From assembly GCF_032884065.1 (NCBI RefSeq), contig NC_088868.1, positions 7,025,129 through 7,089,128 on the forward strand: a stretch of DNA of 64,000 nt. Direction: 5' to 3'. This DNA comes from Artemia franciscana. Taxonomy: Eukaryota; Arthropoda; Branchiopoda; Anostraca; Artemiidae. Under the pieces are notes generated by a model. That model was not told the DNA's origin. It did no database searches and worked only from the letters and a program-made list of their open reading frames with translations. Positions within the stretch are counted from its first letter, which is position 1. Each line of letters begins with the position of its first letter. The translations under genes and the position numbers were made by a program. This document shows, piece after piece, positions 168 to 42,300 of the stretch.

Positions 168-2979
<2,812 letters not shown>

Positions 2980-16414: not shown

Positions 16415-19400
16415 GATAACATTGGGATTCCTGTTCAGCATAACTGAACATCCACCTGAACAAGAATTTCTTTTTGAATTTAGCTCCAGAATGTTACGGG
16501 GTGGTTTGTTAAATAATCCTTGAGTTTATTTTAAAGGGGGTTTTTCGTGGAGTTGCTTGGGACTTTTCTAAGTCTTAATAGTTTGATGTGGATATGGGAG
16601 CTAAATTATTAATAAAATAAAAAGGCTTCGTATAGAATCCCCGGTAACCTGGGAGACAGAACCATCTCGGTGTTGTTCGAGGTCTCTTGAAACAAATATA
16701 GATTCCCTTGGGACCGTGCCTGAAAGCTAGAGGATCTGTACCTGATGCCCTAATACATAGACAGAAGATGATTAAATACAATAAGGTTTATTTACTTACA
16801 ATATACAACTATTGACAAAATAGCTTCAATGTCTTATTGCACTAAAAGGTGAACATGAGAAAATTGATCTAATGCATTCGAATCCTTCCATAAAACTACT
16901 ATTTGCCCTTCTGTTGGACTCATATATCCAACGCGCGCACTTGCCGGACAGGCTTGGTGATCTGCGGAAGTTGACCTCCACTACTATTGGTAATATTTAA
17001 TCATGTGACTAGTCACGCATCCAAAAGCTATTCTTTGGCAAGGATTTCTCTTTTGGTTTTGAGAAAAACCCATAGGTCAGAATAACTGGTTACTTTGTTA
17101 AGTAACATTTTTTTTATCTAAATGCATATAGTCTAATTGCGTTGGACTATGCAGACTGTTGAAAAACTCAGGGGTCAGAATAACTGGTTACTTGACTTGT
17201 TAAGTAACCTTTCACTTATCTAAATGCACGTAGTCTAATTGCGTTGGACCATGCAAATGCATGTAGTCTAATTTGTAGTTTTAATTGTAGTTTTATCTAA
17301 ATGCATGTAGTTTAACTGCGTAGGATTATGCAGACTTGATAAATTTAGCAACTGTTAAATTCTAAATGATTTTATCCAAACCTTTTTCAAATTGAAATTT
17401 ACTAAAGGGGTGTGACTGAGAAATTTAGTCCTGAATTTAAGAGTTCCTAGAAGAGTATGGATGAGAGATTCGGTCCTATATTTGAGGATTCCTAAGGGGA
17501 TGTGAATGAGGGATTTGGTCCTGAATTTTATAAAGGGGGGGGGGCTGGTCTATATGTTACATATCCCCTTTCCCATTGTAGATTGATGTCCCCATCAATC
17601 AGTCTAATTTCTCTCTTTAAATATTGCATTTTATTCCTTATTGTTTATAAAAATTTTATTATAATTCCATAACCTTGTAAATGATGATTAAAATTTAAGA
17701 AATATTTTCCTACACCTTATATATATATGTCCTGTACCTAGCACTAAAAAAAATTATTTAAACACAACACTTGACATTAACTGTTATTACACTCGAATAC
17801 CTGGTTCCAATTGTTCATTTTTACTTTATATCTTTTAACTGTTTTCCCTGTTAATCTGATTTTTAATTGATCCCAGGTATTTTAACAATAAGAATAAAAA
17901 TACACGACGTAATATAATAAGATTTTCACTGGCACTTTTATTTACTTAAATTTATGATTCACTATTTGGCACTTTTTTCTTTTTAAATGTTCATCACTTA
18001 TTAGTTCTGGATATTAGTTTCACACCAATCACAATTTTCGTGTCCTTGCCCTATATACTGATTGAACAAATATATTGTCATTTTCTAATTTATCACCATT
18101 TAGCAAAAGTAAAGATTTTGTTTTTACGCTTTTACAAAATGGGAAGCGCGGGACTCAGAATCACCTATCCCCAGCAGTTTAAGTACAAATGTACGGCCGG
18201 TACTACAGTTCTTCTGTCCTGCTCCCGCTCTCTTCTGCATTTAAGCGTTATCTTAATTGTCTTTTGCGTTATCTTAATTTAATTCAATAGACTGGAGTAC
18301 TATTTAACACCTTACTTGTTAGTTGATTCCTAAGTTTAAAAAATTAGGACTTAGGATCTCCTGTTCTAAAACTTCATTAGGTGTGTGAGGGTTTCCATAT
18401 TGAATTGGGTTCACTAATGGTGTATTGCGTGGGTACGTTGTCGTACCCGCTGGTTGGATGTTTCGTTTTCTCTAGTCTACATCGTATAGTCAGAAATGAA
18501 GGATGGGTGATAGTTTTCCGGTTGAATCAGACGTGTCTTGGGCATTCTTCGGTGGTTGATAAATCATGATAGGTGTTTTGTAGTCTTTGACCATGACGTT
18601 TGTTGGCCAATTTTTGTAGTATGCCAAATTCTGTAATAAAAATTTCCAAGCAGAATCATGTTGTTAACATATAAAATGGTACTAGTGATACGATAATATA
18701 AAGCATTATTTTAAATTGCATAATAATAGTACATAATTGCATAACAGTAATATTATATTTTTTTTTTCAAACATTCAAAGTGAAATCGAATGTACGATTT
18801 CTTAAAAGAAGTTTTAAATTCTAATAATTTTCAGGTACATTTGAAGTAACGTGAGGTATATTTGGTCATATAGCAACTGAAAATAGTTTTATTGGTACTA
18901 CACTATTACTATATTATTATGATTACATGTAAATATAAGAACACGGCACTAAAGAGGGTTATATATATGTAAGATTATATAGAGGTCTTAATGTTTTAGA
19001 TCATATTTTAATCAAAAAGAAATTGAACCTCCAATGCGTGATTAGTCGAAAAGTAATACATTTTGCATTATAGCCTTTCAATTATCACGCCTTGGAACGT
19101 TTTTTTTTTCCCCTTTCTTGAAATAGTTCAGCAAAATTACAAGAGATGACCTCTTAAATCTCTTGTACATAAAAAGATAGAACGAATTTTTTCGTTCTTG
19201 TTAGAGGTCTATATTTACATAAAGATTTTCTGCCAAGAGTATTTTTGATGTATATGCCAAAAAGTAATACAGTATGTTGTATCATAGCCTTCTAGCTGTT
19301 ATACACCAACAATATTTCTACAGTAGGGAAAGGATGTTACGTACGGAGAAAGACCTCTTAATTTCCCCGGATTTTTACATCCTCCCTGTTAAAATGGCTT

Positions 19401-22400
19401 AAATATCATCAGGAGCAGTAGGGTTCAATTGATGCATCTCTTGTGCCTCAATTGCATCAGTGTTTATCCTTTTTCTCTTCAGTATTTTCCCATAGTTAAT
19501 TGTTAGTAGCGCTCTTATTGTTAGTGAAATAAGAAATACCATGAATATTGTGATTATAATATTATACCATGAGTTTGGTGAGAACAAACCGTACTGGCTC
19601 TCCACGTATTTCAATCTTTGGTCTTCGTTAGTGAATAAGGGTATTTGCATATCTAACGCTTCCTTTATTTTTGTTAATTGCATTGTACCTTTGATCTTTT
19701 CTATTTTTGGCCATATGGATGTTTTAGATTCTTCATCATTTATATTCGGAATCGTGAAGGACAAGTTTATTCCTTGAAAATTTATTATTTTTGGGCTCAT
19801 GACGTTAGTGCTGGTTGTGATTAGAGGTGTTTGGACGGTTGTTTCTTTAGTTACAAGTCTGCAACCTTGTTTGATTGTAATAGTCCCAACATCCTGTAAT
19901 AATATTTCGGTTCGATAGCTGGGGTCAATTTTTTCTGTATTGTTATAACAGGATAGAGTTCCCACCGTCTTTTTAGGTACTGTAAATAACCATAAGTCGT
20001 TCCGTAAATTAATGAAAGTTTCTCTTTTGGTATTTCCTATTAAGGCTTCACAAGAATCAGGAATATTTTGTTGCTGCGATTCCTTTAGGAATAGATCTAG
20101 CATGCATGATCCTATCTTTACGTTATATATAGGTAATGTAAGTTGGCAGACCAAATTTTTAAATGACACGCATTCTTTTAATTCTTCGGTATTTGCTAAC
20201 GCGTATTTTCTTCTATCTTGATCTATTAACATATATTCCGCTTCTGGGGTGATGCTCATGAAGGAGTTTGTCTCTTTAATGTTGATGGGAAATGTAGATA
20301 TTTTGTATAGGTCGTATATGGATTGTTGATTAATCAAAGGAATTGTGACTACAGCAAATAGTTGCTCATTGATCTCGGTAATATGCACCTTTAGTTTTGT
20401 ATAATATAAAAACAAGTTAGCTACTTCTGGTTCTACTGGTAAGTGGAGACCAAATGTTAAGTGAGTCTTTATTTCGTTTAGGATGTTCTTAAGATCCGAG
20501 GGATCCACTAAGTCGTAAGAAAGAGTACCTCCGGTTAGCTCAAATAACGCGAACTCAAATTTACTGACATCAGTAGCTAAGTTCAACAAAGACATAATAA
20601 CAATGTCTAGTGACACCATTGTTAGGCTGGAATCAGAGATTACTCTGTCTACTTCATTTTTTAAATAGTTCATTGTGCTGACTGTTCTTGATATTTTTTT
20701 GGATATAGCCTCGATTTTGTCTTTTTGGTAATTGGCTATGCTTGCTTGTATTTTTTGGACATGTAGTGTTGTATTCATGGCTGTGTTGAGTCTTTTAACA
20801 TTATCTCTTAGTATATTCAAATCTTCTTCGGTTGACAAACCGAATAGTCGGGAAGCAAGTTCTCCTACTATTGGGATTAGACTTGTTGATCGTTTATATT
20901 TACTTCTTCGGAAAAATACTTCGAATATACGTGTAGTGCTTTGTTTAAGTTTTTGTATTTCTGTATTGAATAGTTCAAATAACGCCTCTAACCTTTGTCT
21001 ATATAAGATAAGGAATGCCTGATGAGTTGAGACTTTATGAGCATTCTCCATGGTTAATTCCGGGAGGGGTTCTAATTCATCCTTTGCTGGTTCGTCAGCC
21101 ATGGCCAGTCGCGCGCAAGTTTTTTTACCATCTATTGTCCAACATTCTCTCCAGTGACCTTCATCTTGACATTTTTTGTCTCCATCCACACATCGTGTTC
21201 TTCCATAGTCTGTCTCGACAAAAGGGATTTGCCACCTAACTTGTATTCTTCCCTTTTTTGTAGAAGTCCATATCCAGCTAGTTGATTGCCATGGTTGCCT
21301 TACTGTTATTAAAATTTCATCGTTTTTAATTGGCATGAGTACACCAGGGATAGTGCTTGTAGTAATTTCTGATATTGAGGTATCTAACTCTATTGGTTGT
21401 GGGTCAGTCGTCGTGGGGTTTGACGAGGGGAATGTTTCTTCCACTTCTGTTATTGGGGTATGTTCAGTTTCGATTGTTGTTGGAGTAAAATCAGTTTCTG
21501 CTGTGGTTTCCTCGTTCTGAGTATCGTATTTCCAGAAAGTAGTCGTTTCGTATTTTCTTGCGGTGCTTTTGGGGATTTCCATTAATCCGCTCGTGCTTTC
21601 TTCGGTATAATAAGTAATACGTGGAACATGGGCGGTCGTGTTGGTTTTGGTAGCTTCCGTTGTGACGTTTATTATTCTACAGAAGTATTGACATTTAAAC
21701 TTGTATTTTGGTTTGCTGGTACCATTAGTGGAATTCAATTCCACTTCAATATTTTCTATACCTCTTATTATCTCTGGTATTTTATTTGTTTGCGTTACGA
21801 GGTCAGATACAATACTTGTTGCTTGGGTTTCAATTGTAGCGGTTTGCTGTGTATATTGGGAAATACTGGTTATGTCTCTCGTTTCAACCTTCGTTGGTTT
21901 TATTTCAGATAATTCTATTTTTTCTTGTATTGGTCTGTTCTTAGCATTATTAATTTGTTTTGGTCCATTCCATAGTTCTTTGAAGAAATTCCATACTGTG
22001 GGCAATTCGTTCAATAACGCATATTGTCCATCGTAAAATTTTCTTTGTCTCAGTTGTGTTTTTTTTGGCTCAATTGTATTTTGGGTCTCTTTATCGACAT
22101 CTGAGTTTTGGTCATCTTTAATTGACCTTCGTTTTCTTTTTTCAATGGTTTTTCCGAATCCTATAGCTTTATCGATTTCGGCCATTTTCGTATCAAAATC
22201 ATCTACTATTCTTTTTGTTTTGACCTTGGGAGAGTTAGGGGATGTTTCTTTCTTTTCCTTATGATTGTTTTTGCTTGCTTGTAGTCCCTTGTCTGATTTT
22301 AAAAATTGAAAAATTGATTCTTTTAGGTCAAATGTATTTTTCTCCAGTCTTATAACTTGTTGGAACAATGTTTCAAATGGTTTAGGGTCTAGCTTCATAA

Positions 22401-25400
22401 AAATTTTCCAAGCGTTGTTACTAGTTAGAAGTGAATTTTCGTGTTTGAATATTATCCCATGCTTTACGACATCTTGTGTATGGGCACCTACACACATGGC
22501 CATCAAAAATGTTAAGATCATCATTCTTATCTGTAATCAATATTTAATCAATTATTTCTGACAAAGTACGACAGAAAGAAAAAATGGATTGCGTGACGCT
22601 GAGATTTATTAAGTATTAATGGAGTTTTTCAATATAGATTTAAGGGGCTAATACGCTATTGTCATTAAGATATAGTATGAAAAAAATCAATTTAAAAATA
22701 TCAATAATTCTAAATTGGAGCTGAGAAAGGAAGTTATTTTTTTTTATAGAGTCAATTAACTTCAGTAGTTTGCGGTAACAAACTGTGATTAAGAGCGATT
22801 TGGCTCAATAGTAACGAAATTTTAATGTCTAATAGCAAATATTTTAGTAGTCTCGAGGGCAATTAATATATATATATTATCCGTGTACAGACCTTGGCAT
22901 GGGTTAGGACAATTTGGCTGTAAGAAAAGACTTCTTGATATATACGTCGCCAAACAGTAGGTGTATATACTGCCTTGTTGGTTACAGGGCGGTAGGCAAA
23001 ATTTTCAGATGCATAGTTGAGCAAAAAATAATTAAAGAATTTAATAGTATGTGTTTTTACAGCGAATAATGTTAGGCTAAAAAAAAATAGTTGTTGAATA
23101 AACCTTAATTTTTTGTTTAAATTGGGGATATGTAGTTTTCAGAATCATAATGGTCATATTACTATTAAACAAAGAAATGAAATAAAACCTTAAATGATAA
23201 CAAGTTGTTAGCGATCTTGGTTGAAATTTCGTTTTGAGGTCTGGTAGAGGATTAACTTTTATTTCTGTTAGTTCTTCATTTCCATCTGTTAGCTAACATA
23301 AGGAATTAGGGCAAAGCGAGTAAACATTACCATATCAGTTCAAATAAAAATTATTATATATATTCCTTTTTTTTAATTTAATAAAATATGGGGTAGGGCA
23401 GTGGTAAATGCTATTAGGGTTATACTACTAGATAATTTAGTATTTTAGTTAAAAGTAGTATTCTTTTTTTCTTTTCTTTTTTAATATCAGATAAAAGTAT
23501 GAAATAATTATTTGTTTATTATGGCCTAAATCTTAAGTTACTAATTTGTTATGGAGTAGAAATTTATTAGCCTATTTTGTTACAAAAAATTTTTGATTTA
23601 TGGTTTAAATTTGAATTTAGTTTAAATCCAATTATAGATGTCTTGATATAGTCTAAAGCTTAAAATGAGGGTTTGTAATTATATAATAAGATTATAAGGC
23701 TTAGTAACTATATCTCAAAGATATAGATCACAGCTTTCCTGGTATGCACTTTGGGAGATAATTATAGCTATGCCAAACTGGCACGAATTTGAGAGGGTGT
23801 CTTATTGAGGTATAATAGTTTGACTTTCGATAAATTAAGTGTTCTTTCGTATTTAAACCCATTCTAGCTTAAAACTACCTGGCTTAGTTGTAAAAGAAGA
23901 ACAACCTTTGACTTATGACTTAAATCGGTTTTAAATTTAGTAGTATCTTAGCCTAACTTAATTAATAAGTTGTAGGCTACTAGTCCTTTGTAGTACAAAT
24001 CTATATTGTACTTATTTAAAATGAGTTAAACTTTAGGTTAAGATTTTGAAAAGTTTCACAACTTGTTTCCTTTTAATTTTTTTTTTTTTTTAAAGAATGA
24101 TTGAATAAGAAAAAAAAATAAGCATTCTCTCATTATGCAGAAATACTCTCTTATCCCAATTATCTTGTCGTTAAAAAAAAACAACATTTTCTCATTATGC
24201 AGAAATACTCTCTTATTCCAATTATCTTGTCGTTTGAAGATGTGCCGTATAATTATGGCTTTTCGAAAAACCTTTAGATTTGATGTATTCACTACCTCAG
24301 GTAGATGTAAGTAGATTATAATTGAGGGTTTTATTACAGCACTTTGCATTTGGAATGAGACCCAGTCAAATTAAGAACAATGTTTTACTTTGTAAGTAGC
24401 AATATTTCAATAGAATGATGCGACTATTTTTGGTTCTTATAATAAATATAGTAGTTAACTTTAGTTAGCTACTAAATTAAAAGTTAAGTGTATAAGTTTC
24501 TTTTAAAAAGAAAGTTGTTTTCTTTTATCATTATATAAAAGTCTCGTTTTACAATACATTGTTCAGTTGTTTAGATGGGAAGACTATATTCTGTTATCTA
24601 AGCGAGATACATAAGTATACTTTGTGAACAAATGTTTATCAAATATAGTTATTGTGTTTTGATATGTTTTCAAAGCTTGTATTTTCAAAGCTTGACATTT
24701 GAAGTATTTTTCAAAGTTCGGACCGTGTCGTGAATCCATGTAGATCGCATAAGGTAAGAGATTGAATTTCGTTAAATGCCCTTGGGACATTTTTTGTTAA
24801 AATTATGCGAAGAAAAAAAATTTTTTTATTTTTTAAGTAGTAGGCTAAAGGTTAGTAGGCTAAGTGTTAAGTTTAGATTTTTCGTGTGTTATATGCTATT
24901 ACACTTATTTATAATAGTTTGTAAAGTTCACAGGTCCGGCGATTTTGGTAATTTCTAAACATATTTATCTTACTATAAGTATATGAATTAAGTTAGTTAT
25001 ACGAAGGTTATATGTTTTTTTTTTTATGTTAGTTTTTGGTAAGCGTAATTTATTTTGAAGAATCATTACCTTATTGCCATATATTTCCTGTTTCGTTCTC
25101 CTTTCTGTTCCTGAAACGTTTTTACTTCATTTGATTTGATTTGATTTTTTTTTTTTTTACTTTTAGTTGCATTTGGGGGTGTTTTTGTTCAAACTCTACT
25201 TCTGCTATTATCTCGTAATAGTTTTCTTGGCTTTTGGGTCCGAAAATTGATAGTAATTGTATCCCGTTTACAAGTTCTCTTCCAAATTTCATGTTTTTAA
25301 AATTGGAAGTTAAGGAGGGGTGAAGTTTTCGTGCCTCTTTCCTTAGCTTTTTTACTTTTCTTAGGTCAACTAACGTTAAATGTGGCTTCCAGTTTTCTTG

Positions 25401-28400
25401 ATTTACAATTCGTACTCCGCTTTTGGTAATTTCTTTCGAGACTTCTTCTATGATTGGATTTAGGCGCGTTTTAACTACCTCTTCGTTCTCTAATTTCGCA
25501 TATATAATTTGCTCAAAGAAATCTCCGATGCCTTGAAAATCAAGATAAAGTTTTTCATTTATGAAATTTTGTCTATATTTTTCTATGGTCTTGACAAAAG
25601 CACTTTTTACATGTTCAATTTCAGTATTATTTTTCAGATGCAATACTTTTAACGTTAGATGGAAGGAGTTTTGTTTGATTAAGGCTTTTGTTAACTTAGG
25701 GTTTGTTTCAATTACGTGTTTTTGCATTAATGAAGCATTCATCCTTATCTGAGGGTTTTTAACTTGGATTGCGAGGAAGTAATTCGGCTGAGATTCCATT
25801 ACTTCATATCTTTAGACCAGTCCAATTTCTAAAAAAAAATTAAATTGGGTTATATTAATAATTATTGGGTGGAGTTAGGCATGTTTTCATGGATAATTTC
25901 GTGGGATTAGTTGTTTGTTACTCAGAGGTTTAAAATTTTTGTAAAGTAGTAAGGTTGGGGATAACTTAAGGTTCCATTTAATGGCATGATATTTCTTTTT
26001 CAATTTTTGTTAGTTATAGGCAGGTTAGTAAGTTAATTGGCGGTTATCTTGGTACTGGTTTCTTCTAGAATCGCGTATGACGTGTTTATTAAGGTATTGG
26101 TTTCTATTCTCTGCCAACCAAATTTTTCATTTATTTTACACGGTTCTTCCTTGTCTACAAATTAGAAAAGTTACATAAGGGGGGAGGAAAAAATAAGGGT
26201 GGTAAAGGGTAAAAAGGGACCGTCTAGTTCATAATTTTCTGTTATTCTTAAAATTGGCCCACTATTGACCAGTAAATTGCACTGTGACTTTAAAAGGTAG
26301 GGGGTTTTAAATGTTAACTGGAAGTCCTTTTCGTTGATTCCAGGGCCGTTTTCCATGTACATTATGTATTTCTTTAGGAAAGTGGGAATATAGAGGCATT
26401 GCATGGAATAATTAATGTCCGTTTTTCTTAATATTTGCCGTATTTTCTTCCTGCATAGATCTTTTAGACTGAGTTCATCTGAGGTCGTGTGAATTATTTT
26501 ATAAGTCAATTCCTTACGAAAGCATAGTGGGCTAGCTGTGTCTAGGAATTTCTCATACACAATGATGTCTTTATCTGGCAAAATTTTTGATCCAAAATTT
26601 TCATCATTCATGTAGAATTTTGTCGTTACATTTATTAACTCCATATACTGTTCATCATAAATATAATGGCTTGAATTTTTTACAATTATTGGGTCAAAAT
26701 TAGTACTGTATCTCAAATAGTGCTCATATATTCCCAACAATATATTTTCATCTTCCACAATTTTGTAATTCACATTTAGTAGTAAGTCCAGAAACTTTAA
26801 GGGCCATATTATTTTGAAACCTGATTCTTGTTCTATATGCCAAAAATTTTCGCGTATTAAAGATGCTATTAAAGGATACGCAACGGGGGGCATCGCTCGG
26901 AGTAGGGCTGCGAAAGTGTATGCAGCATTCTTGTGCCTATAATCGTAATCTTTGCTCAATATTTCCAGTGAAAATGATCCGTATAATAGGATGATTATTC
27001 CGTGTATTAGGAGATCCTCGTTAAAAATAACGGGAACTTTCAATAATGAATATAAGGTATTATATTCCAAGTTCCTTACTGCATTAGTTATTGCAGATTC
27101 GAAGATTATTTCCCGTAGTTCATAGTCTATTACTGAGAGGTTTGGTAAACTTAGAGTTTTATTTGAAATCCAAAATTCTGGTCTCGCAAACATTAGGTCT
27201 TGGTTGGTTTCTAGGGTGTCGGTATTACTTAAGGTTCTTTGTCTCGGCATTTTCCTGGTTAGTATTAGTCACACGTATAAGCAGGCTAATTATCTAATGA
27301 GTAATTACCTTTTTCCGCCTTGAGTCCTTTTGGTGATTCGTCTAAAAAAAATTGTAGATTTTGTTTATTGTTTGAATTTTTTTGATTTTAATTTACCTTT
27401 ATATGCGTCTTTTTTTGCTTCTACCGATTTTTTCTCTTTAAGAAAATGTTATTTCCCCTTACTGCGTAATTTTGGGACGTTGGATCATACATAAATTTGG
27501 CGTAATGTCGGATTTCATCTAAGGGGCGGTGAATTCCTTCGTACTTAATACAATTTTCATTTTCCTCGATTTTATAACAAATTTTCGGTGGTCTACATTT
27601 ATCAATTAAAAGTAGGTCGGTTTGATTCGGACCCTTGCAAAACCAATAGCTTATATTAAATTTTTGTTGTAGTTTTCTTATTAATAGTTGAAGGCTTGTT
27701 AAGTTTTTTCCTTTCTTATTTTTATTTGAATATTTTATTTTTACTTCTCCTCTCGCGGGTCGATATTTAGGAGTATTCGCTAATTTTAAGCCAAATCTAT
27801 ATTTATGAGGTTCAAATTTTGTTAAATCGTAGTTGAGGTACCATGTTTCAGCATATACCTCTTTACCATTCTTATCCTGCACTAAAATCGCGGCCGCATA
27901 TATAATGTTTTCCTTAGCATGGATAATTGAAATAAATTCTGTATCTATAATGGCTTTGGACATATTTTGGTGGTAAATGGGGTAGTTAATAATTTAAGAG
28001 GGATTCAATAACTTGGGGAAATCGGAAGCGAGACGACGTTTCTAATTTTGCAAGTTACAAATTAGAAACGTCAAGTAAAAAGTGGAGAAATACAATGTAC
28101 ATGGATTTTTACTCAAATTCGTTCAAAAACGGGCGAATATTCTATATAATGGGAAGCATTGGTTGGTACAGCCTTGGTTAAAGCAACGAAGGAACGGCAA
28201 TCGGTAATTCGTACCGATACAGCGTACGAACCCGGACAAGGCTCGTACGCAGCATCCGCACCAACCACCGACTATTGGTTCTTGGGGAGTTTGGATTATA
28301 ATTTCCACTTGTTCACTTTATCACTGGCTGTAACACTGAAGAAGTAGCTTTCAAGGGGTCCTCTCAAGTTGTATGCGGAAAAGCAAGCTGAAACACGCTA

Positions 28401-31400
28401 AGCTTTTCCACCACAACCCGCAAGGGCGTCCGTTGTCGTTTAATCTCAGGTTGTGTGTATAGTAGACTTTCTTGTAATTTCGAATGTAATTCTAGTTTCG
28501 AAATCTAAATCGTCTGTCTATGCGTAAGGTTTAGCAATATTAATAAGCTTTCTAATCAACGTTTTGTTACAGCTGAGTTATACTTGTGGTAAGATAGTTT
28601 ACCAAAGCTACGGGTTATATTATTAGAGAAATTAAAGTTTTTAAGAATCATGAAGTGTCTCGCCTACTTATCTGGCGAAACGTTTAGTCGATGGGGCAGT
28701 TTTAATTTTAACCCTTAAGATAATCCTTAACTTAAAGGAATTATTTTAAGAAAAATGTTAATGAAGCAATTGCACTCATGCGGTTAATCTTAGCAAAAAT
28801 GTGATTTTGAACTCACTTAGAATAATGAGCACTCTTTGAAGATAGGCCAATTTTTCACTTGGAGTCTTTCAGCTTTCCTGAAAGGTACTTTCTTTTAAGG
28901 ATGTTTTATTACGGGATGGTTTCTTAGCGTAATTAATTGACAATTAGCAAAAAAAAATGATTATTTTATTATTATTATTTTTTTTCTTTATTTTATTTAG
29001 GACTGGTAGATTTTCATTTTTCTTTTATTAATAATCTAATTTATCTGGTTTTTTGATAACTCGGCCTGACCTTGTTGTTACCTTCTCTTCAGTAGACTCG
29101 GTTTTTTTCTTTGGCTTCGCTAGCGATATCAAGTCAAACTTTTTATATTGTTTTTTAAGAAATTTTTGACCTTTAATTTGTGCCTTTTTAGCCTGGGCAG
29201 TTGCACTCTGTGGTCTTGTTCCTTCCACATCTTTGGGCTCATTTGTGCCTGATTCACTCTCAGTATCTGAGGAACTAGTTGTAGATTTAGTATCTGGTTC
29301 TCTTGAAGTAGAAGTTTGAGATTTCGGTGTAGATCCAGCTCGACCTTCGTAAATTTCTTCACCTCGTGAAGTGGAGGGTTTATTGATTGACTCGTCCTGT
29401 TGATCTCTGTGCTCGGGAGAATTGAACGATTCTTGGGAGCTTTGGGAGGATTCAAATGTCTTCTTGGGGTGCCTCCACTGCTTGAAAGCCATGTCTTCCG
29501 GGGGGTGAGGAAGTGTTTGTATTAAGGTTTCCTTCCAAGATACCCAGTCCTTTGGTTTTGCCTTTGAGACGGTTATATCGTGATATTGTTGTTCATCTGT
29601 AGCTGGATTAGTATCAAGTGTACTTTGTCTAGTTTTAATTGGGTAATTAATAAGATCCATGGCCTCCCGCAATGTTTGTCGCTGCGGTTGGTAGACCTTT
29701 TCTGACTCTATGTCACCAGGGGTCTGTATAGCCTTATTTAATTCATCTTGTAACGAAAAGGGTCTGTCTATTGGTGTGACAGGGTTTACCAAATCATCGG
29801 GGAAACGTTTTGGTGGAAAAGGTGTCGAAATTCGATCCGGGAAAAATTGCGTTTGTGGAGAAATTGTATAGTCCAACTCTTCTGATTCTTCACTGGAAGA
29901 GGAATCGCTTTTCCTCCGTCTCCGCGTAACGGGGGTACTTTTTGGGGGGGTAACCATATTTGTCATGGTTAGAAATTCATTAAATTTTTCTTCGTCACTA
30001 CTGTTTTCAAAATATCCTTGTTTGAAATTAAAAGGTTTAAGCTCACTTAATCTAGAGCGAGGTGGTTGATTTTCGTCCTCCGAGGTATTTGATGTTGAAG
30101 GTTGAGGGGTCCATGTTTCTGTGAATTTTGCCCTCTTTATACGACTAACGTGGGTTTTATAGACTTTTCCTGTTTTTGGTTTTAATAGTTTAAATGTAAC
30201 GTTATTATCATACTTTTTAATTATTCTTAACGGTCCTAGGTACCGGTCCGAAAGTTTCTTGCCGTCCGATTTGTTTTCGTTCTTTAAGTAAACGCAATCT
30301 CCTACTTGGAAATCGAGTTTACCTTTGACATTAGGAATATTTTTTGCTTCTTGCTTTCTGTTTGATCTTTCTATTTCTTGTTTTACAAGCTTATAAGTTT
30401 TCCTCATTCTATTGATAAATTCTTGTTTATAATCTTGAGAATCATTATAAAATTGTCGTGACTCTATAATTTCATTATAAGGGATTCTAAAGTCTCGTCC
30501 GAATAATATATAAAATGGGTTATCGCGAATGACCTGGGAGTAAGCTGTATTTATTACATTTGTTAAATAAGGTAAGGTATCATGCCAATCCCTGCGATTT
30601 TCTTTCGTGTAAATACTTAAAATATTAGAAAATAGTTTGTGTCTGTTCTCGATTTTCCCATTGGCCTGTGGATGATAAGGGGTCGATACCAATTTATTTA
30701 TTTGAAGGAAAGACATTAAATCCTTGGTTACTTTCGCTACAAAATTAGGGCCGTTATCGCTTAATACTGTATTGGGGATACCGAAATTAAGGAATATTTT
30801 AGCGAGAGCTTTCGACGTTGTATAGGCGCTTTGATTTTTTAATGGTTTAGCAAAAGTGAAACCAGAAAAATGATCAATCACTGACAGTACACAGGTATGT
30901 CCTTCATTAGAAGTGGGTAATCCTCCACTTGTACCATATAAATCAAAAGAGACTATGTCAAATGGAAACCGGGCCGTAGGCGTTGTTCCTATCGTTGGAT
31001 TCGGGTAGACTTGGGGATTTTTTCTTAAATTACAGGTTTCACAATTATTAACATAATTCTTTAACTTTGTTAAGGCTGAAGTAACGAAAAAGTATTGTTT
31101 TAATTTATGGAATGTCTTATCTAATCCCAAGTGACCTCCTACTTCAGAATGAAAGAATTCAAAAGCGGGTTTTTCCAAAATTTGGGGTAAAACTGGTATA
31201 ACGGAAGTTTGATTTCTTTTATTAGTATCGGTCATTATCCTACATAGTATTTTTTCGTCGAAATCATAATAATAGTTATCAATTTCTTTTTTAAAAGATT
31301 TCATTTCATCAGGTAACTCTTTATCATATAAGAAATATTCTATTAGAGCAGCAAAAGTATTATCTTTCTTTTGATATATTTTTATAGAATTCAAGGAAAG

Positions 31401-34400
31401 TGGGCTGTCTTTCTGTTCCTTCTCAACCGAATTATTCTCAGCCGATTTCATTTTTAAACCTTTCTTTCTTGGAACGTACTTTGCTTTTATCGTGTTGACA
31501 TCTTCATTTTCATTTTCTACTGGGGTATTATCTGGAAATCTACTTAGATAATCACATGGGGCATTTTGTTTTCCCTTAAGATGTTCAAATTCATAATCTA
31601 AGTCTTGGATTTTCAAAATCCATCTCGCGAGTATTCCCGTTGGCTTTTTGAAAGTTTGCAAATATTGCAGGCTTTTGTGGTCCGAACGCAGTTTAAATTT
31701 TCTGCCTACCAAATAATGTCTGAACTTGTCCAAATGGTGGATAATCGACAATAATTCAAGCTGTGTAGCAGAATAATTACTTTCTCCAGCAGTCAGGGTG
31801 CGAGAAGCGTACGCTATCACTCTTTCTTCCCCATTTATTATTTGGGAGAGGATCGCCCCAATTCCCTTGTTTGAGGCATCCGTTGTAACAACGAATTGTC
31901 CTGTTTGGAAGTCAGGTAGCGATAAAATAGGTTCTGAGGTTAGAGCCTTTTTTAAATGATCTATTGCATTTTGAGCTGTATTAGACCACACAATTTTTTG
32001 TGGGTTGCCTCTCGTGAGGTCCGTTAAAGGTTTTGCAACTTGTGCGTAATTTCTTATAAATTTTCGGAAATAACTCATTAATCCTAAGATTCCTCGTAAT
32101 TGTTTAATTGTTTGGGGGGGCTTTATATTTTTAACGGATTTTATTTTTTCAGGGTCTGGGGAAATTTGTCCTTGCGTTACAACTACTCCTAAAAATTTTA
32201 GTTTTGTTTGAAAAAGATTTACTTTTTCTGGTCTACATTTTAAATTGCCTTAAATTCTCTAAATTTCCCAAACACTTTTGCTAGTGTCTCTAAATGGTCC
32301 TCCGCGTCTTTGTCCATAGCTATGACGTCATCAACAAAATGAATTATGTTATTTAGGCCTCTTAGTAAATGAAGGAGGGGTCTACACAATGCACTCGAAC
32401 TAGTTTTTAGTCCAAATGGTACTCTTAAGTATTCATAAGAACCACATTCTGAAGTTGAAAAAGCTGTTTTAAAAACATCACCCTCAGCTATTTTTACTTG
32501 ATGATATCCTTGTGTCAAATCTAGGGAAGTAAATATTTTATTTTTATTTGATATCGAGTCTAGAATTTCGTCTATTCTAGGTAGGGGAAATTTGTCACTT
32601 ACTACTTGTTTATTTAAAGCTCTATAATCTACCACTAGTCTAAGATCATTATTCTTTTTCGGGACTAAAATAACGGGGGCAGAGTATGGGCTTATGCTTG
32701 GCCTTATGATTTGATTTTTTTCGAGTTCATGTATTTTGTTTATTAGCCATTCCTTATGTTTATAAGGAATTCTGTATGGTTGTTTTGCGACTGGTGGTCC
32801 CGTGGTTTGTATTGCGTGTTCATAAAATGGGATAAGTCCTATGTCATCTTCAGATGTCGAAAAGACATCTTTATATTTCCATAATAAGTCGCATAATTTT
32901 TGTTTTAATGACACGTCGGTTATGTGACTTAGTTCGAATTTCTCAAGGAATTGAGATCGCGTCAGTGGATATTCTCTGTCAACGTAAACATTAATATTAT
33001 TCACGTAGTTTTTTTCCAAATTTTTCCAATTATTAATGTCGGATTCCGATACTACCTGTATCTCTACTAAACATGTACCTTTACTTAGGGTAATTAGGTC
33101 GTTTTCGTGGGTGTTCGTTACCCAAATGTAACCTTCTCCCTTTTCGTAATTTATAATTTGTTCTTCACACACTAAATATTTCGGGAGATCTTCCCAAGGC
33201 GATGCTACCCAAATTTCATTTTTATCATTAACTGGTTCTAACAATTGTGATATTTGGATCCTCTGCATTGATTTAGGGGGAATTTTTGTTTTACGCACTA
33301 CAAATCCATAATATTTTTCGTGATTTTCTTCTTTTATTGAATTTAGAAGATTCTCCGCTGGTTTTTCTCCTGGAGTTTCTATTTTTTCAAGTTTTTTCCA
33401 TAGATAACAAATTTCTTGAATTTGTTTGCTTCTATATTCTCTCATGTTACCTATATTTTCCCTTACTTTGTTTGCTTGTATGTTATTTATCATTGATATG
33501 GTGTCCATCGGGTAGATAAACTTTGAATTTGCTACATCTAATAATATTTTATTTGATTTTAAAAAATTTGCGCCTATTACTGCTTCGTATGGAAAATTCT
33601 TACAAACTATAAATCGAGTATAGAAATTTCTGTTATCCTTGCGCAAGGCTAGATACACAGTGCCTTTCACATCCAGGTCGTGTCCGGTTACACTTGATAA
33701 ATTGGGACAGATATTGCTCATTCGTCGTTTAATATAGTTTGGTAATTTATTAAACACGGATGTATTTATCACATTTACGGTTGCTCCTGAATCTATAAGG
33801 GCTGAGAAATAAATATTCCCTGCGTTGAAATTTTCAAATACTGGTAACATCTTATTATTATTTGCACTTAAAAATGGTATTATTACTGGGGGGGACCTAT
33901 AAATTATTTTGCCACCAAATTTTGGTCCTACGAATTTTGGGGGCTTATATCGTTTCCCTGGGATTCCCAGATGTTAGATGTAGAATTTTCATTTGTTCTG
34001 TTTTGGGTTCCTTGGTTATTACTTGAGATGGAGCTATTATATGGCTGCCGTCGGCTGATGTAATTTTCTCTTGTATTTCTGTTCCAACTATTACTGGGTT
34101 GATTTGTTCTTCCACGATACCCTCCTCGATATTGATATGCATTGCGTTGAAAATTTCGACTTTGGGTGGGATAATTACCTCCTGTTACAAAGGTGTTTCC
34201 TCGATCACCTCTTGGGGCGTACCCACTATAGTTTGTCCCCCTGGACAAACGGTTACCCGTTCCCCTAATGTTTGGTCGATTATTATTGTTTGCAAAACAA
34301 TTTCTTGCGATGTGTCCTAATCGGTTACATGTGTAGCACCTTAATGGTTCACTGTTAGTTTGTGCCCTTAATTGATTATTGGGGGCAAAACGTACTTGTC

Positions 34401-37400
34401 TTGGTGGTGTGGTGGTTCGAATTTGATTTCGAACAGGTTTGGGCGATGATTGTCGGGAGAAAAATCGCGGAGAGGAATCCCTTGATCTTACAGGGGCTTT
34501 GCTTTCTACAGCATTTATTGACATTTTTTGATGCTGCAGGACAATCGAATCAATTTCTACGGCTCTTTCTATTTCCTGAACTGCTAGTTCTAGGTTATCA
34601 ATATTTTTAGCTATCAAAAGGCGGTATAACTTTGGGTTTAGTCCCTGCTTAAATGCATTTAGTATGATTTTTTCATATAATTCCCCTTCTCCTGGACCGT
34701 ATCGCGCTTCTGTTGCGATTCTAACCTTATGCAAGTACTCACGAACGTTTTGGGTCTGTTCGAAAGTAACTAGGCCATGTTTTAGTTTATTCAATGAACT
34801 TGTGTCAATGAATCTTTTCTGGAAGGCCTGTTGCAATAATTCTATTGAGTTAATGGTTGAGGTTGCTTCTGTACCTATCGAGTTTTCGATTTGTTTTAGA
34901 AATGTTAGCGCCTGTCCTTTCAGTCTTAAAAGTAACATATTTTTTAATACTTTTAGGTCAATTTTTGTCATTTCCACAAATTGCCCTAAATGGATGTTGA
35001 ATTGATCAACGTCCGTATCTCCTTCATATTCTGGTAATGATTTTGCAATTTCTACCGAAGTTGCAATAATTTGTTGCGCTTTTAATATTTCATCTTGTTC
35101 TTGTTCCATATTTATTGTATTTTTTTTTTTAAATATGCGGTTTAAAATAATCTTAAATTTTTTTTTTTTTTTTTTTTTAATTTTATTACTGTTTTATTTT
35201 ATTTTCTTAAAGATTTTGATATTTTTGAATGGGGTATACCTATATATAAAAAAAAAATGCAAAAATAGAAATAAAATCGCACTGCACCTAAAAATTCAAA
35301 AAGCTAGGTAAAATTGCACTGCACTCAAAAATCAAAAAAATAAAATGTAAGTAATCATACTTGTCTATGTTAGTGGGCATTAATTGTAGGTAATTTCAGT
35401 TCCTTTTTCTGCTTTCTTTACCCGACCGCGCCATATGTTACGGGGTGGTTTGTTAAATAATCCTTGAGTTTATTTTAAAGGGGGTTTTTCGTGGAGTTGC
35501 TTGGGACTTTTCTAAGTCTTAATAGTTTGATGTGGATATGGGAGCTAAATTATTAATAAAATAAAAAGGCTTCGTATAGAATCCCCGGTAACCTGGGAGA
35601 CAGAACCATCTCGGTGTTGTTCGAGGTCTCTTGAAACAAATATAGATTCCCTTGGGACCGTGCCTGAAAGCTAGAGGAACTGTACCTGATGCCCTAATAC
35701 ATAGACAGAAGATGATTAAATACAATAAGGTTTATTTACTTACAATATACAACTTTTGACAAGATAGCTTCAATGTCTTATTGCACTAAAAGGTGAACAT
35801 GAGAAATTGATCTAATGCATTCGAATCCTTCCATAAAACTAACTATTTGCCCTTGTGTTGGACTCATATATCCAACGCGCGCACTTGCCGGACAGGCTTG
35901 GTGACCTGCGGAAGTTGACCTCCACTACTATTGGTAATATTTAATCATGTGACTAGTCACGCATCCAAAAGCTATTCTTTGGCAAGGATTTCTCTTTTGG
36001 TTTTGAGAAAAACCCATAGGTCAGAATAACTGGTTACTTTGTTAAGTAACATTTTTTTATCTAAATGCACATAGTCTAATTGCGTTGGACTATGCAGACT
36101 GTTGAAAAACTCAGGGGTCAGAATAACTGGTTACTTGACTTGTTAAGTAACCTTTCACTTATCTAAATGCACGTAGTCTAATTGCGTTGGACCATGCAAA
36201 TGCATGTAGTCTAATTTGTAGTTTTAATTGTAGTTTTATCTAAATGCATGTAGTCTAATTGCGTAGGATTATGCAGACTTGATAAATTTAGCAACTGTTA
36301 AATTCTAAATGATTTTATCCAAACCTTTTTCAAATTGAAATTTACTAAAGGGGTGTGACTGAGAAATTTAGTCCTGAATTTAAGAGTTCCTAGAAGAGTA
36401 TGGATGAGAGATTTGGTCCTATATTTGAGGATTCCTAAGGGGATGTGAATGAGGGATTTGGTCCTGAATTTTATAAAGGGGGGGGGGGCTGGTCTATATG
36501 TTACAAGAACACTGCAGAGCAACCCAAGTCTATAATCAACTAGGACAAAATTTAACTATTGTGAAGATGCTCTTCTGCAGGGGGTGAATCTCCAGCATTC
36601 CTATTGAATGGGGAGGCAAGAGGGGCTCATATTTGGATAGTCAAGGGGTATTGGCTGTATAATATTTTTTCTCCAGATTATTTGAGGGACAACTGCCCCC
36701 CCCCCAAACAACGTCCCTGCACTTCTGTGAGAATGAGGAGAGAACTAGGCAGAAAAAGGTAACATATTCCAGTTGCCGTGGATCAATGTAAACTTATAAA
36801 TGACCTATGGACAAACTAGGATGTGGGAAGTGATATCCATCTTCCTTTGTTACCTCCTCCCACCTCTCAAGGAGCTGCTTGAATGACTCATGCAGTTATT
36901 GCTATATGATGGAAGCTTGCAGGAATTGATCTACTACTAAAATAGAAATGCACAAAGTTTTGTTTTCCAAGCTATGCAACTGACTTAATTCAGGGAGAAT
37001 TGCCAGTTTGGCTAAGAATATGATGTGTTTTCTGGAAACCCAACATCCAAGTGTTTACTTGGCTGTTAATTACTCTACAAGTGATTTGTTCTGCCTGTTC
37101 AAAGTTATGAATGTCACTAAAATATATATGCTCCAAGTTGCAAGTTTGGTTTACTCCTGTGTTAATTCTTTAGCACCACTTGGACTAAGACAAATATGTT
37201 TCAAACGGCTTCAGAATATCACTCATACCCAACAATCTTATCTGAAAACAATTTACTCATATCAGAAATGCACCACAATGGTGCACTGTCATTACTACAT
37301 GTTGGTGTAAAGGTATGGAACATGGTATGCCTAACAGGTATCAGGTATGCCTAACTATATAAAGGAATCAATTTTGCTAAGTTTGTTCCAAAAAAAATCT

Positions 37401-39354: not shown

Positions 39355-42300
39355 AAAACTTCGTTTTCTTAAAGAGTTAAAGAGGCTGCATCCCAAAGTC
39401 GAACCTTAAAACGTACAGGAATTAGGAGAGGCAGTAGGGGGGCTGCCGCCCCCCAAACCCCGCTTTTAAAGACTCTTTTGTACTGATTTTTTTGTTGTGG
39501 GGGGACTTCATTGTTACTAATTACTAGTTTCGGCGCAATGGTTCTCCTGTCCTCTTGTGTTTAATATTTTTCGAAGTTATTCCATTATTCATTCATTTCA
39601 ATTTTTGTTAATTAAAAGAGGGCCTTTCCGAAGCCAAGAGCGGGGGGTTAGGGGGGCGGCAGCCCCCCACAACAAAAAACCTGTACTAAAGAGTCTTTAA
39701 AAGCGGGGGGTTTGGGGGACGGCAGCCCCCCTACTGCCTCTCCTAATTCCTGTACGTTTTAAGGTTCGACTTTGGGACGCAGCCTCTTTAACTCTTCAAG
39801 AAAACGAAGTTTTTTTCATATTATTTCTGTACGTTTTTCTACAATCCATGGTGGATGTAATTTAATAATAATTTTCCATGTTTATTTTCTCACTTTCTGT
39901 ATCAATAAATTCAAACTGACAAAATCATCTAATTTTGATAATTTTAATAGTTTAGCAGCTTAATTAAAAATTTAGCAGCTAGTGGTTTTTACCCACCCGC
40001 CTCCGGTTTATGGGCCCAGCGCGCTTCCGCTGCGCCAAGCTGCTGTTATGCTTGTTATCAAACAAGTTATTGCAATAGAAAATTTCACCAACGGCTTCAA
40101 TTAGGAAATCAATTTAAATGGTTCTTTTAACTTGCTTCCATCAAGCCTTACCCCCGCTTCAGTATAAATTCTTGTGAACATTCCAGTATGTAATTCTGAT
40201 CACATGTTTCCATGTTTATTTTCTCCCTTTCTGTATCAATAAATTAAAACTGACAAAATTACCTAATTTTACAAATTTTAAAAAGTTAGCAACTAGCGGT
40301 TTCGATCCACCGACTTCTGGGTTATGGGCCCAGCACGCTTCCGCTTCGCCAAGCCGCTGTTACTGTAAGAATTTTTCAAACAAGTGATGTTATTACAAGA
40401 GAAAATTTTACCTTCAATGGGGAAATGGGTTTTTCTAAGCTAGAAAATCGGGGGGTTAATACTTTCCGACGAAACTTTCCAGGAAAATTACTCGGAGAAT
40501 TCCGCGTTGAATGAGTCTTCGTACACCCAGATCCGATGTCGGCTGTGACCTGTAGGCGTGGCAGAAAACCAAAAAAAGGGTTTCTGTCATTTTTATCAAA
40601 TAAAAATTTTACGGATTAAGACAGATATTTTTGAAGCTTTCAGTCAGTTTCACCATGTCGAGCTGATCATTTTGATGTACTTGATGTTGAAATTCGTAAC
40701 TTTTAACAACAAAAAACTTAACATGGGCTCTTATAGGGAAATGGAGTTTTTCTAAGCTAGAAAATCGGGGGGTTAAGATTTTCCGACGAAACTTTCAAGC
40801 AAAATTACTCGGAGAATTCCGCGTCGAATGAGTCTTCGTACACCCAGATCCGATGTCGGCTGTGACCTGTAGGCGTGGCAGAAAAAAAAAGAATATGAAC
40901 ATTAAGTGGCTATGCGTGGTTTCTGGAAAACCGGGAAGGAGTTATCGGATCGAGCTGAAATTTCGCGGATAAGCTCCTGGGCCCAAGGGGACCTTAACTT
41001 GTGAATTTCAGCCCAATCGGACAACGTTAAAGGGGGGCTGGGGTTGGTGGGTCGAAACTTTTGGCCAGATTTTCCCCATGAAGGAAAAGTTGGAGGGGAT
41101 GAAATTTGGCAGGTTTCTTAGTTGGAGCTCGGGCTACGAAATGCATCCCTCCCCATCCCTCTGCGACCACTGGAACCGAAGATCGCTTAACATTGTCGTG
41201 GTTCGCCTCTTTAAAGAGGCACGAGTGTGCCTCCTTGATAAAGTGAGTTAAAGACAAACTGCAATGTTTAAAAAAAGTAAATCTTGATTTTAAAGTAAGA
41301 AGGCGTTAAAGGACTAAAAACAAGTTAAACCAAGTGACACAAAATAGTGTCAAAAAAGAGACAGAGAAACAATAACAGAGAGCAAGCTAACAAAGCTCAT
41401 AAACAAAAAATCTTAGAAAAAAACTTAGAACTTTAGGTGCACCAAAAAAAGCAGTTAAAATAAAAGAAGCAAGTTAAACCAAGAGCCAATTAAAAGGAAT
41501 TAAAAAGAAAAAGAAGTGGAATTTCTTAGAGAAGATGCTAATTTTCTTATTGTTAAAAAATTTTTGCTTTAAAAGGGTGAAATTTTTAATGTCTCTCTTG
41601 TAAGGGCCAGGGTCAATGAGTAATTTGGAACAGTTGAGAAGACTAAGCTAGGAAATACCTTTTTTAGACATTGTGTGAGGTTTTGTCAGACAATTAAAAA
41701 TTAAGTATTGTTTTGGGCCAAATATTGTATATTTTCTTGCATTTATTAAAAAACAACAGGGTAAAGATCTCCACACCCAATCTAGGTTGAAGATCCTCTA
41801 TCTGTAGTGTTCCAAATTATATATTTAAAATTGATTGTTTTCTTTATAGTATATTTGAATCAGAACTTACTGAAGTAATTCCAGTTGTTCATACATCCAT
41901 AGCTGGCTGTAGGATTATTGGGAGACTGACTGTTGGAAACAAACATGGTTTGATGGTTCCAAATACAACAACTGATCAGGAATTGCAACAACTGAGAAAT
42001 TCACTCCCTGATGCAGTGAAAATTCACCGAGTTGAAGAGAGATTATCAGCCCTTGGGAATGTTGTGGCATGTAATGATTATGTTGCATTAGTTCATCCTG
42101 ACTTAGATAGAGTAAGACTTTTGTTGAGTTTCAGCTCTTTCCTTTTTTATTTTTATTTTTTTCCTTTCATATCCTTTTCTTTCTCTTTTTTTCCTTTAAT
42201 TATTTTTCTTTTTTCTGTTTCCATTAGCAACTTCTCCGCTTAATGACATTGTTATTTTTTTCATAAAGTGTTGTAAATATTTTCCTAAAGTTTAATTTTA

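Follow-up and report, generated by a model that had tools for sequence, protein, structure and literature searches.

An env-bearing Ty3/Gypsy element family of Artemia franciscana with SOCS-box and phosphoesterase-like accessory genes between pol and env

Errantiviruses such as gypsy and ZAM have long terminal repeats (LTRs), a 4-bp target-site duplication, a CCHC gag, the order protease, reverse transcriptase, RNase H and integrase, and an env similar to a viral fusion protein. All of these are shared by an element of the brine shrimp Artemia franciscana that lies in a 64,000-nucleotide stretch of contig NC_088868.1 (G000:C6:7025129-7089128), hereafter the window. Gypsy elements and errantiviruses described so far are not known to carry more than gag, pol and env, and errantiviruses are about 7-9 kb long. 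The Artemia element is 20 kb long, and its family has three to five accessory genes between pol and env. In gene complexity this env-bearing Gypsy element equals a complex retrovirus; LTR elements with captured enzymes are already known. As judged from sequence, its gene content and order, its recurrence across the genome, purifying selection, the retention of motifs and a mosaicism at synonymous sites can be taken as established, while the functions discussed below are proposals.

Lentiviruses offer a second comparison through Vif and their splice layout: they too have accessory ORFs between pol and env, a docking box for Cul5 and Elongin BC, and an acceptor, micro-exon and donor ahead of an accessory ATG. 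In HIV-1 the start codons of vif and vpr sit just after donors D2 and D3. We saw no sequence homology to lentiviruses, however, and the Artemia family has a Gypsy pol, several SOCS-box paralogues, and RNA phosphoesterases in place of Vpr, Tat and Rev.

Among LTR elements, Vesta and Juno of bdelloid rotifers likewise acquire enzyme ORFs downstream of pol and have them in common (PMC5408684), their captured ORF3 being a DEDDy exonuclease or a GDSL esterase (PMC5408684). Most members lack a bona fide env, carry another ORF3 instead and show no departure from neutrality (PMC5408684), and SOCS genes go unmentioned in the portion of that report available to us (PMC5408684). The Artemia element differs in keeping env, in having several adjacent genes under purifying selection, and in the enzymes themselves, which are of the 2H and ANGEL2-like EEP types. 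Accessory domains have also been noted in insect retrotransposons, according to the accessible part of one report (PMC6338049). Among the open-literature papers listed, judged by titles and the beginnings of abstracts, none describes elements of this kind with genes for SOCS-box, AKAP7 or ANGEL2 proteins, no search having been aimed at ANGEL2 together with retroelements, and prior mention is possible; PMC12992720 does not use the words accessory, SOCS, phosphodiesterase or sORF, nor additional ORF or fourth ORF.

Accessory genes between pol and env

A first-pass annotation of the window had proposed three ORFs on the element's coding strand in the 6.5 kb between pol (ending at 29028) and env (starting at 22524), and ORFs of 225, 359 and 180 aa were located there, together with the remains of a fourth gene:

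27421..27963, minus strand: ORF1 ("DEDD-like"), 180 aa; open frame that recurs in the genome
26171..27250, minus strand: SOCS-A (ORF2), 359 aa; SOCS box at aa 260-296, with BC-box-like LKxxCR and Cul5-box-like LxxP
25929..25987 (approximate end), minus strand: SOCS-B remains; the gene's first codons abut its last bases
25122..25799, minus strand: AKAP7-like 2H phosphoesterase (ORF3), 225 aa; HLTL at aa 47-50 and 140-143

Two of the three domain assignments made at first pass were borne out by profile search. SOCS-A matches Pfam SOCS_box at 3.2e-06 and the AKAP7-like ORF matches AKAP7_NLS at 3.2e-37 across its full length, both above the curated cut-offs. The third, a DEDDh exonuclease identity for the 180-aa ORF, found no match. 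The idea of a three-gene cassette holds for the whole ORFs of the window copy and falls short as a description of the set, since relatives have as many as five accessory genes, against the three whole ones here, with additional SOCS-box paralogues and an ANGEL2-like phosphatase among them.

These ORFs recur throughout the 1.27-Gb genome (6,468 contigs), with at least 150 AKAP7-like matches (150 of 359 candidates scored), at least 150 ORF1 matches (150 of 460), at least 114 SOCS-A matches (113 of 833) and at least 46 env matches (44 of 2,252). Among the ORF1 matches listed, 102 of 150 have an AKAP7-like match within 10 kb downstream on the same strand. The 114 SOCS matches listed comprise 77 with ORF1 upstream and AKAP7 downstream, 16 with ORF1 only, 9 with AKAP7 only and 12 with neither. 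An AKAP7-like ORF lies within 9 kb upstream of env in 41 of the 46 env matches listed, which correspond to 39 of 44 places (two places account for two matches each). Because matches recur genome-wide, many in the same order and strand, the ORFs exceed chance. The block is borne by the element, as first proposed, for it lies inside the LTR pair and is found in many copies, some of which lack one or more of the ORFs. Chance ORFs or a separate host insertion were considered and rejected, many copies holding the genes in the same order.

Five env places have no AKAP7-like ORF listed. At C14:18704923 (L057, G000:C14:18698500-18704940), gag and protease stand directly upstream of env instead, a layout like that left by an internal deletion or by the nesting of one insertion in another. 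At C14:18983542 (L056) and C5:45420542 (L058) the genes are ANGEL2-like and SOCS-C; L056 also retains a remnant of AKAP7, and the L058 stretch yielded none. The contig C5494 begins 734 bases before its env, and the fifth place is C7:19542246. Same-strand matches about 16-20 kb apart at C13:28210330 and 28226682, and also on C12, C14 and C165, suggest tandem elements that may share LTRs.

The SOCS-box genes form a small family within the element. SOCS-A proteins of both lineages, that of the window and the group II lineage described below, exceed the Pfam cut-off (3.2e-06 to 1.6e-08). In sister copies a fourth ORF, SOCS-B, lies between SOCS-A and AKAP7; it is a SOCS-box paralogue with 39% identity to SOCS-A and, where open, a length of 362-368 aa, and four members score 0.0027, 0.0006, 0.00015 and 0.2 against SOCS_box, all below the cut-off. 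All ten SOCS-A and SOCS-B proteins compared share, without variation, the BC-box residues (LK..CR) and the Cul5-box-like LxxP. A PDB search with the SOCS-A/B profile gave ASB9 as its top match, in the SOCS box of that protein, at an E-value of only 0.19. The N-terminal 250 residues had no sequence match, and no ankyrin, SH2, SPRY or other substrate-binding domain was found in them. Since the first codons of SOCS-B are joined to its last bases in the window, the rest was lost by internal deletion. SOCS-B is also absent from C3989 (L002), C14:4527536 (L018) and C748 (L020), and part of it is kept in C5:21970995 (L019).

Coronavirus NS2/NS4b and rotavirus VP3 2',5'-phosphoesterases belong to the same 2H family as the AKAP7-like protein and have two catalytic histidines (PMC8406329, consulted in part). 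The element's protein is nearer to cellular AKAP7 structures in the PDB (best 5jj2 at 6.2e-28) than to a viral NS2A model (0.094), and it is carried by a retroelement. In an alignment of 14 element proteins, two of them shortened and with identity down to 49%, H47, T49, L50, H140, L141 and T142 are invariant, so that both HxT motifs are kept in all 14. The last residues of the window protein differ from those of sister copies.

ORF1 had no homologue in Pfam, PHROGs or PDB sequences, leaving the DEDDh label unproven, and among viral contigs 106 pattern matches yielded no confirmed relative. Its length of 180 aa compares with 199-203 aa in most open relatives. A DTE stretch is invariant in six of six proteins, and the final motif takes the form H(x)4E or Y(x)4E; with these motif-like stretches a DEDD-type nuclease is possible. 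AlphaFold2 run without an alignment on two window ORFs gave predicted local distance difference test scores of 34.6 (ORF1) and 36.5, too poor to judge a fold.

A second lineage, group II, has the order pol, ORF1, SOCS-A, AKAP7, ANGEL2-like gene, SOCS-C, env, a composite from pieces of several copies. Its ORF1, SOCS and AKAP7 are about 82%, 46% and 53% identical, respectively, to those of the window, and L029, L031 and L032 have them as open ORFs of 203, 343-344 and 209 aa. The ANGEL2-like ORF of L056 (3983-5140) has 386 aa and matches ANGEL2, a CCR4-family 2',3'-cyclic phosphatase (PDB 6rvz, 1.1e-63), and Pfam Exo_endo_phos (1.2e-13). In sister elements these ORFs contain QE, NTH, GDLN and SDH stretches, which we take to be catalytic. 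The gene is element-borne and absent from the window copy. In the pieces read, its C-terminus is present in six of six (L050-L055), and the ORF is whole and open (372 aa) in L060 and L062 and broken in L059 and L061. SOCS-C is a third SOCS-box gene of about 330 aa in the AKAP7-env interval, scoring below the Pfam SOCS_box cut-off. It is present in seven of seven group II pieces read. The frame is open from end to end in L050, L054 and L055; it is split in L048, and L051-L053 have an altered start. Groups I and III pair SOCS-A with SOCS-B, and group II pairs SOCS-A with SOCS-C; L028, a group III copy, has a SOCS-C remnant 3' of AKAP7. Between 22500 and 25130 the window has no remnant of SOCS-C or ANGEL2; a 62-bp tandem duplication (24111-24234, 92% identical) lies in this non-coding stretch between AKAP7 and env.

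The window copy and its RNA signals

Repeat alignment of the window revealed a single LTR element on the minus strand, 16492-36505 (20,014 bp), with these parts beyond the accessory block:

35436..36505, minus strand: 5' LTR, direct repeat of the 3' LTR at 98.8% identity
16492..17561, minus strand: 3' LTR, direct repeat of the 5' LTR
16488..16491, no strand: left target-site duplication AGAA, read from the LTR-end sequence
36506..36509, no strand: right target-site duplication AGAA, read from the LTR-end sequence
35420..35433, minus strand: putative primer-binding-site-like sequence TGGCGCGGTCGGGT, 2 nt inside the 5' LTR
33928..35109, minus strand: gag, 393 aa; Retrotrans_gag 2.4e-05, CCHC 2.8e-05
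32240..33973, minus strand: pol piece 1, protease (RVP 0.0047, below cut-off) and reverse transcriptase (1.3e-20)
29028..32249, minus strand: pol piece 2, in another frame; RNase H 2e-33, H2C2 7e-12, integrase core 2.8e-10
19399..22524, minus strand: env, 1041 aa, open frame; PDB 9w4d "fusion protein" 6.8e-13

The LTR alignment (16491-17561 against 35435-36505; 1,073 columns) has 9 mismatches and 4 gapped columns, and the ends were placed by reading at TGTTAC...GTTACA, with AGAA outside each. The open frame of pol piece 1 overlaps the 3' end of gag. Because pol is open as two pieces in different frames, it is broken or frame-shifted in this copy. Env had no Pfam match above cut-off; by eye it has a furin-like site, a fusion-peptide-like stretch and a C-terminal hydrophobic anchor. 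The LTR pair with its target-site duplication, the CCHC gag, the order protease, reverse transcriptase, RNase H, integrase (the protease match being below the Pfam cut-off) and the fusion-protein-like env agree with the initial reading of an env-bearing, Gypsy-class element. In the element's sense the order is gag, pol, ORF1, SOCS-A, AKAP7-like, env. LTRs this similar indicate that the window copy inserted fairly recently; it belongs to a large env-bearing Ty3/Gypsy family and has a reduced gene content.

Upstream of the accessory genes we find splice-like signals, and between pol and ORF1 (28150-28460, minus strand) a strong RNA fold with two long hairpins (z = -6.06):

27304..27352, minus strand: splice-acceptor-like poly-T AG, 33-nt micro-exon and GGTAA donor, 5' of SOCS-A; read by eye and pattern test
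25829..25840, minus strand: splice-acceptor-like poly-T AG, 29 nt before the AKAP7-like ATG; read by eye and pattern test
28350..28429, minus strand: RNA hairpin HP1, from the fold of 28150-28460; matched in 15 of 24 upstreams
28192..28281, minus strand: RNA hairpin HP2, from the same fold

The pattern test applied a regular expression, weaker than the eye, to the 150 nt upstream of the start in distinct upstreams. An acceptor-like site precedes AKAP7 in 17 of 19 upstreams, with the AG 29-37 nt before the ATG in 16 of those 17; the counts are 7 of 18 for SOCS-A, 1 of 12 for SOCS-B, 0 of 3 for SOCS-C and 9 of 23 for ORF1. The background in random windows is 23% in the element's sense, 37% in its antisense, and 30% and 29% in the rest of the window. 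An acceptor followed by a donor occurs in 6 of 18 SOCS-A and 1 of 12 SOCS-B upstreams and in none for AKAP7, SOCS-C and ORF1, against backgrounds of 0.6%, 3.4%, 2.2% and 1.8% in the same regions. By eye, the SOCS-A unit of acceptor, micro-exon and donor is also seen in L029 and L030 of group II, and the donor is lost in L026. The accessory genes may be expressed from spliced subgenomic mRNAs.

HP1 was aligned from 11 of the 15 matching upstreams (L011, L012, L013 and L016 were dropped as repeats), 9 of them distinct. In these 9, 90.6% of cells are paired, against at most 52.0% when the structure is slid along the alignment. The pairing percentage was reached by 2 of 500 shuffles and the covariation score by 20 of 500; the two double-change pairs are a number that 472 of 500 shuffles also reach, which leaves support for the hairpin moderate. 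By sequence, among the 24 upstreams, HP1 had no match in L022, L023, L025, L030 and L031 and short chance matches in L028, L029, L033 and L036; group II and certain group III copies are without it. Around the same position, L029 and L030, both of group II, have another long hairpin. The folded RNA may be an export or processing signal.

Around the element, an eIF6 open frame (41791-42243, plus strand; Pfam 2.2e-32) about 5 kb away is probably a host exon, and a transposase frame (2011-2979, plus strand; DDE_Tnp_4 6.5e-29) is presumably Harbinger-like. Two tRNA matches (39973-40358, minus strand; 43.1 and 40.5 bits, starts 314 bp apart) stand beside repeated units and are perhaps tRNA-derived short interspersed elements. 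They were the only Rfam matches above gathering score in a search with E up to 1, both outside the element, next to 12 weak others.

Possible functions and history of the module

On balance, we lean towards a "complex" errantivirus-like element whose proteins take over Cullin-RING ligases and modify RNA 2' ends to counter host defence. The variable N-terminal part of each SOCS-box protein would dock a host target and bring it to Elongin BC and Cullin5 for ubiquitination. The AKAP7-like 2H and ANGEL2-like EEP enzymes would strip 2'-linked phosphates, either from 2',5'-oligonucleotide messengers or from 2',3'-cyclic RNA ends. Removal of 2' phosphates might then starve RTCB-type repair or block the 2',5' messenger of an antiviral or anti-transposon response. 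As to targets, 2-5A/RNase L, the classic AKAP7-type one, is not known to be active in most invertebrates, and 2',3'-cGAMP is not degraded by mouse AKAP7 in the part of the report available (PMC8406329). For the RTCB branch, partial sources describe ANGEL2 as stripping 2',3'-cyclic phosphates and reducing RTCB ligation (PMC13247085), and "SOS splicing" as an anti-transposon defence that involves RTCB (PMC13247085).

The same enzymology could serve the element itself. Here the accessory enzymes would handle the element's RNA, by repairing RNA ends, processing mRNA or primers or assembling ribonucleoprotein, and SOCS proteins would regulate its proteins or trafficking. RNA 2' ends are the substrate of ANGEL2 and some 2H enzymes. 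In the accessible text of one report, ANGEL2 and CNP alter the amount of 2',3'-cyclic ends available to RTCB for ligation (PMC13247085) and LINE-1 can hijack RNA ligation in a pro-transposon manner (PMC13247085); exonuclease and esterase ORFs of unknown role occur in bdelloid elements, again from a partial source (PMC5408684). However, SOCS and AKAP7 are far more diverged than pol and env, and SOCS genes have been duplicated and lost, a pattern expected of host-interaction factors, and known gypsy elements replicate without such genes. We regard service to the element's own RNA as somewhat unlikely.

Divergence at synonymous sites bears on how the module has moved. Between the two lineages integrase and env have dS of 0.40 and 0.62, below saturation, while the accessory genes are saturated, which suggests that the module has been exchanged between element lineages. 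The comparison, by the Nei-Gojobori method, covered a single env piece of group II and a single pol piece. If mutation or codon bias were unequal, the same contrast could arise without exchange, the method being unreliable near saturation and the flanks resting on those single pieces, but we think this unlikely: three neighbouring accessory genes have proportions of synonymous differences of 0.66-0.74, and their flanks 0.31 and 0.42, although env itself ranges along its length from 0.26 to 0.61 (windows of 13 and 3 codons omitted).

A further candidate target is cGAS-like/STING signalling, which the AKAP7-like enzyme would antagonise by cutting cyclic dinucleotides. Hydrolysis of cGAMP is described for LigT-like 2H enzymes from avian poxviruses and for phage Acb1, in a source seen in part (PMC11410667); given the mouse AKAP7 result above, we consider this quite improbable. 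That the ORFs are passive cargo, captured host genes without function, is very hard to credit, even with many copies decayed, the window copy lacking most of SOCS-B and altered at the ends of ORF1 and AKAP7, ratios of nonsynonymous to synonymous change (dN/dS) near 1 in close pairs, and captured bdelloid ORFs that do not depart significantly from neutrality in the available part of that study (PMC5408684): when dN/dS was compared across copies, as proposed at first pass, diverged pairs of open ORFs gave mostly 0.08-0.41, which is purifying selection.

Returning to an element that counters host defence, a bolder and more tentative form is that these are invertebrate "complex" gypsy retroviruses with an independently evolved lentivirus-like layout. 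An alternatively spliced region would encode several related Cullin5 hijackers of the Vif type, and two unrelated enzymes, 2H and ANGEL2-like, would converge on RNA 2' phosphates, in a module that recombines between lineages and counters an RNA-based defence. That defence, so far undescribed for invertebrate retroelements, might be signalling by 2',5'-oligonucleotides or the repair, through RTCB, of RNAs hit by transposons. If the functional reading is true, accessory-gene warfare in the style of lentiviruses is not peculiar to vertebrates, and a gypsy element has assembled its own ubiquitin-ligase adaptors and RNA phosphoesterases in an invertebrate genome. Two enzymes for RNA 2' ends would point to a host defence built on 2'-linked nucleotides or on RNAs with cyclic ends. 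The fast-changing N-terminal parts of the SOCS proteins could act as baits for the restriction factors they remove.

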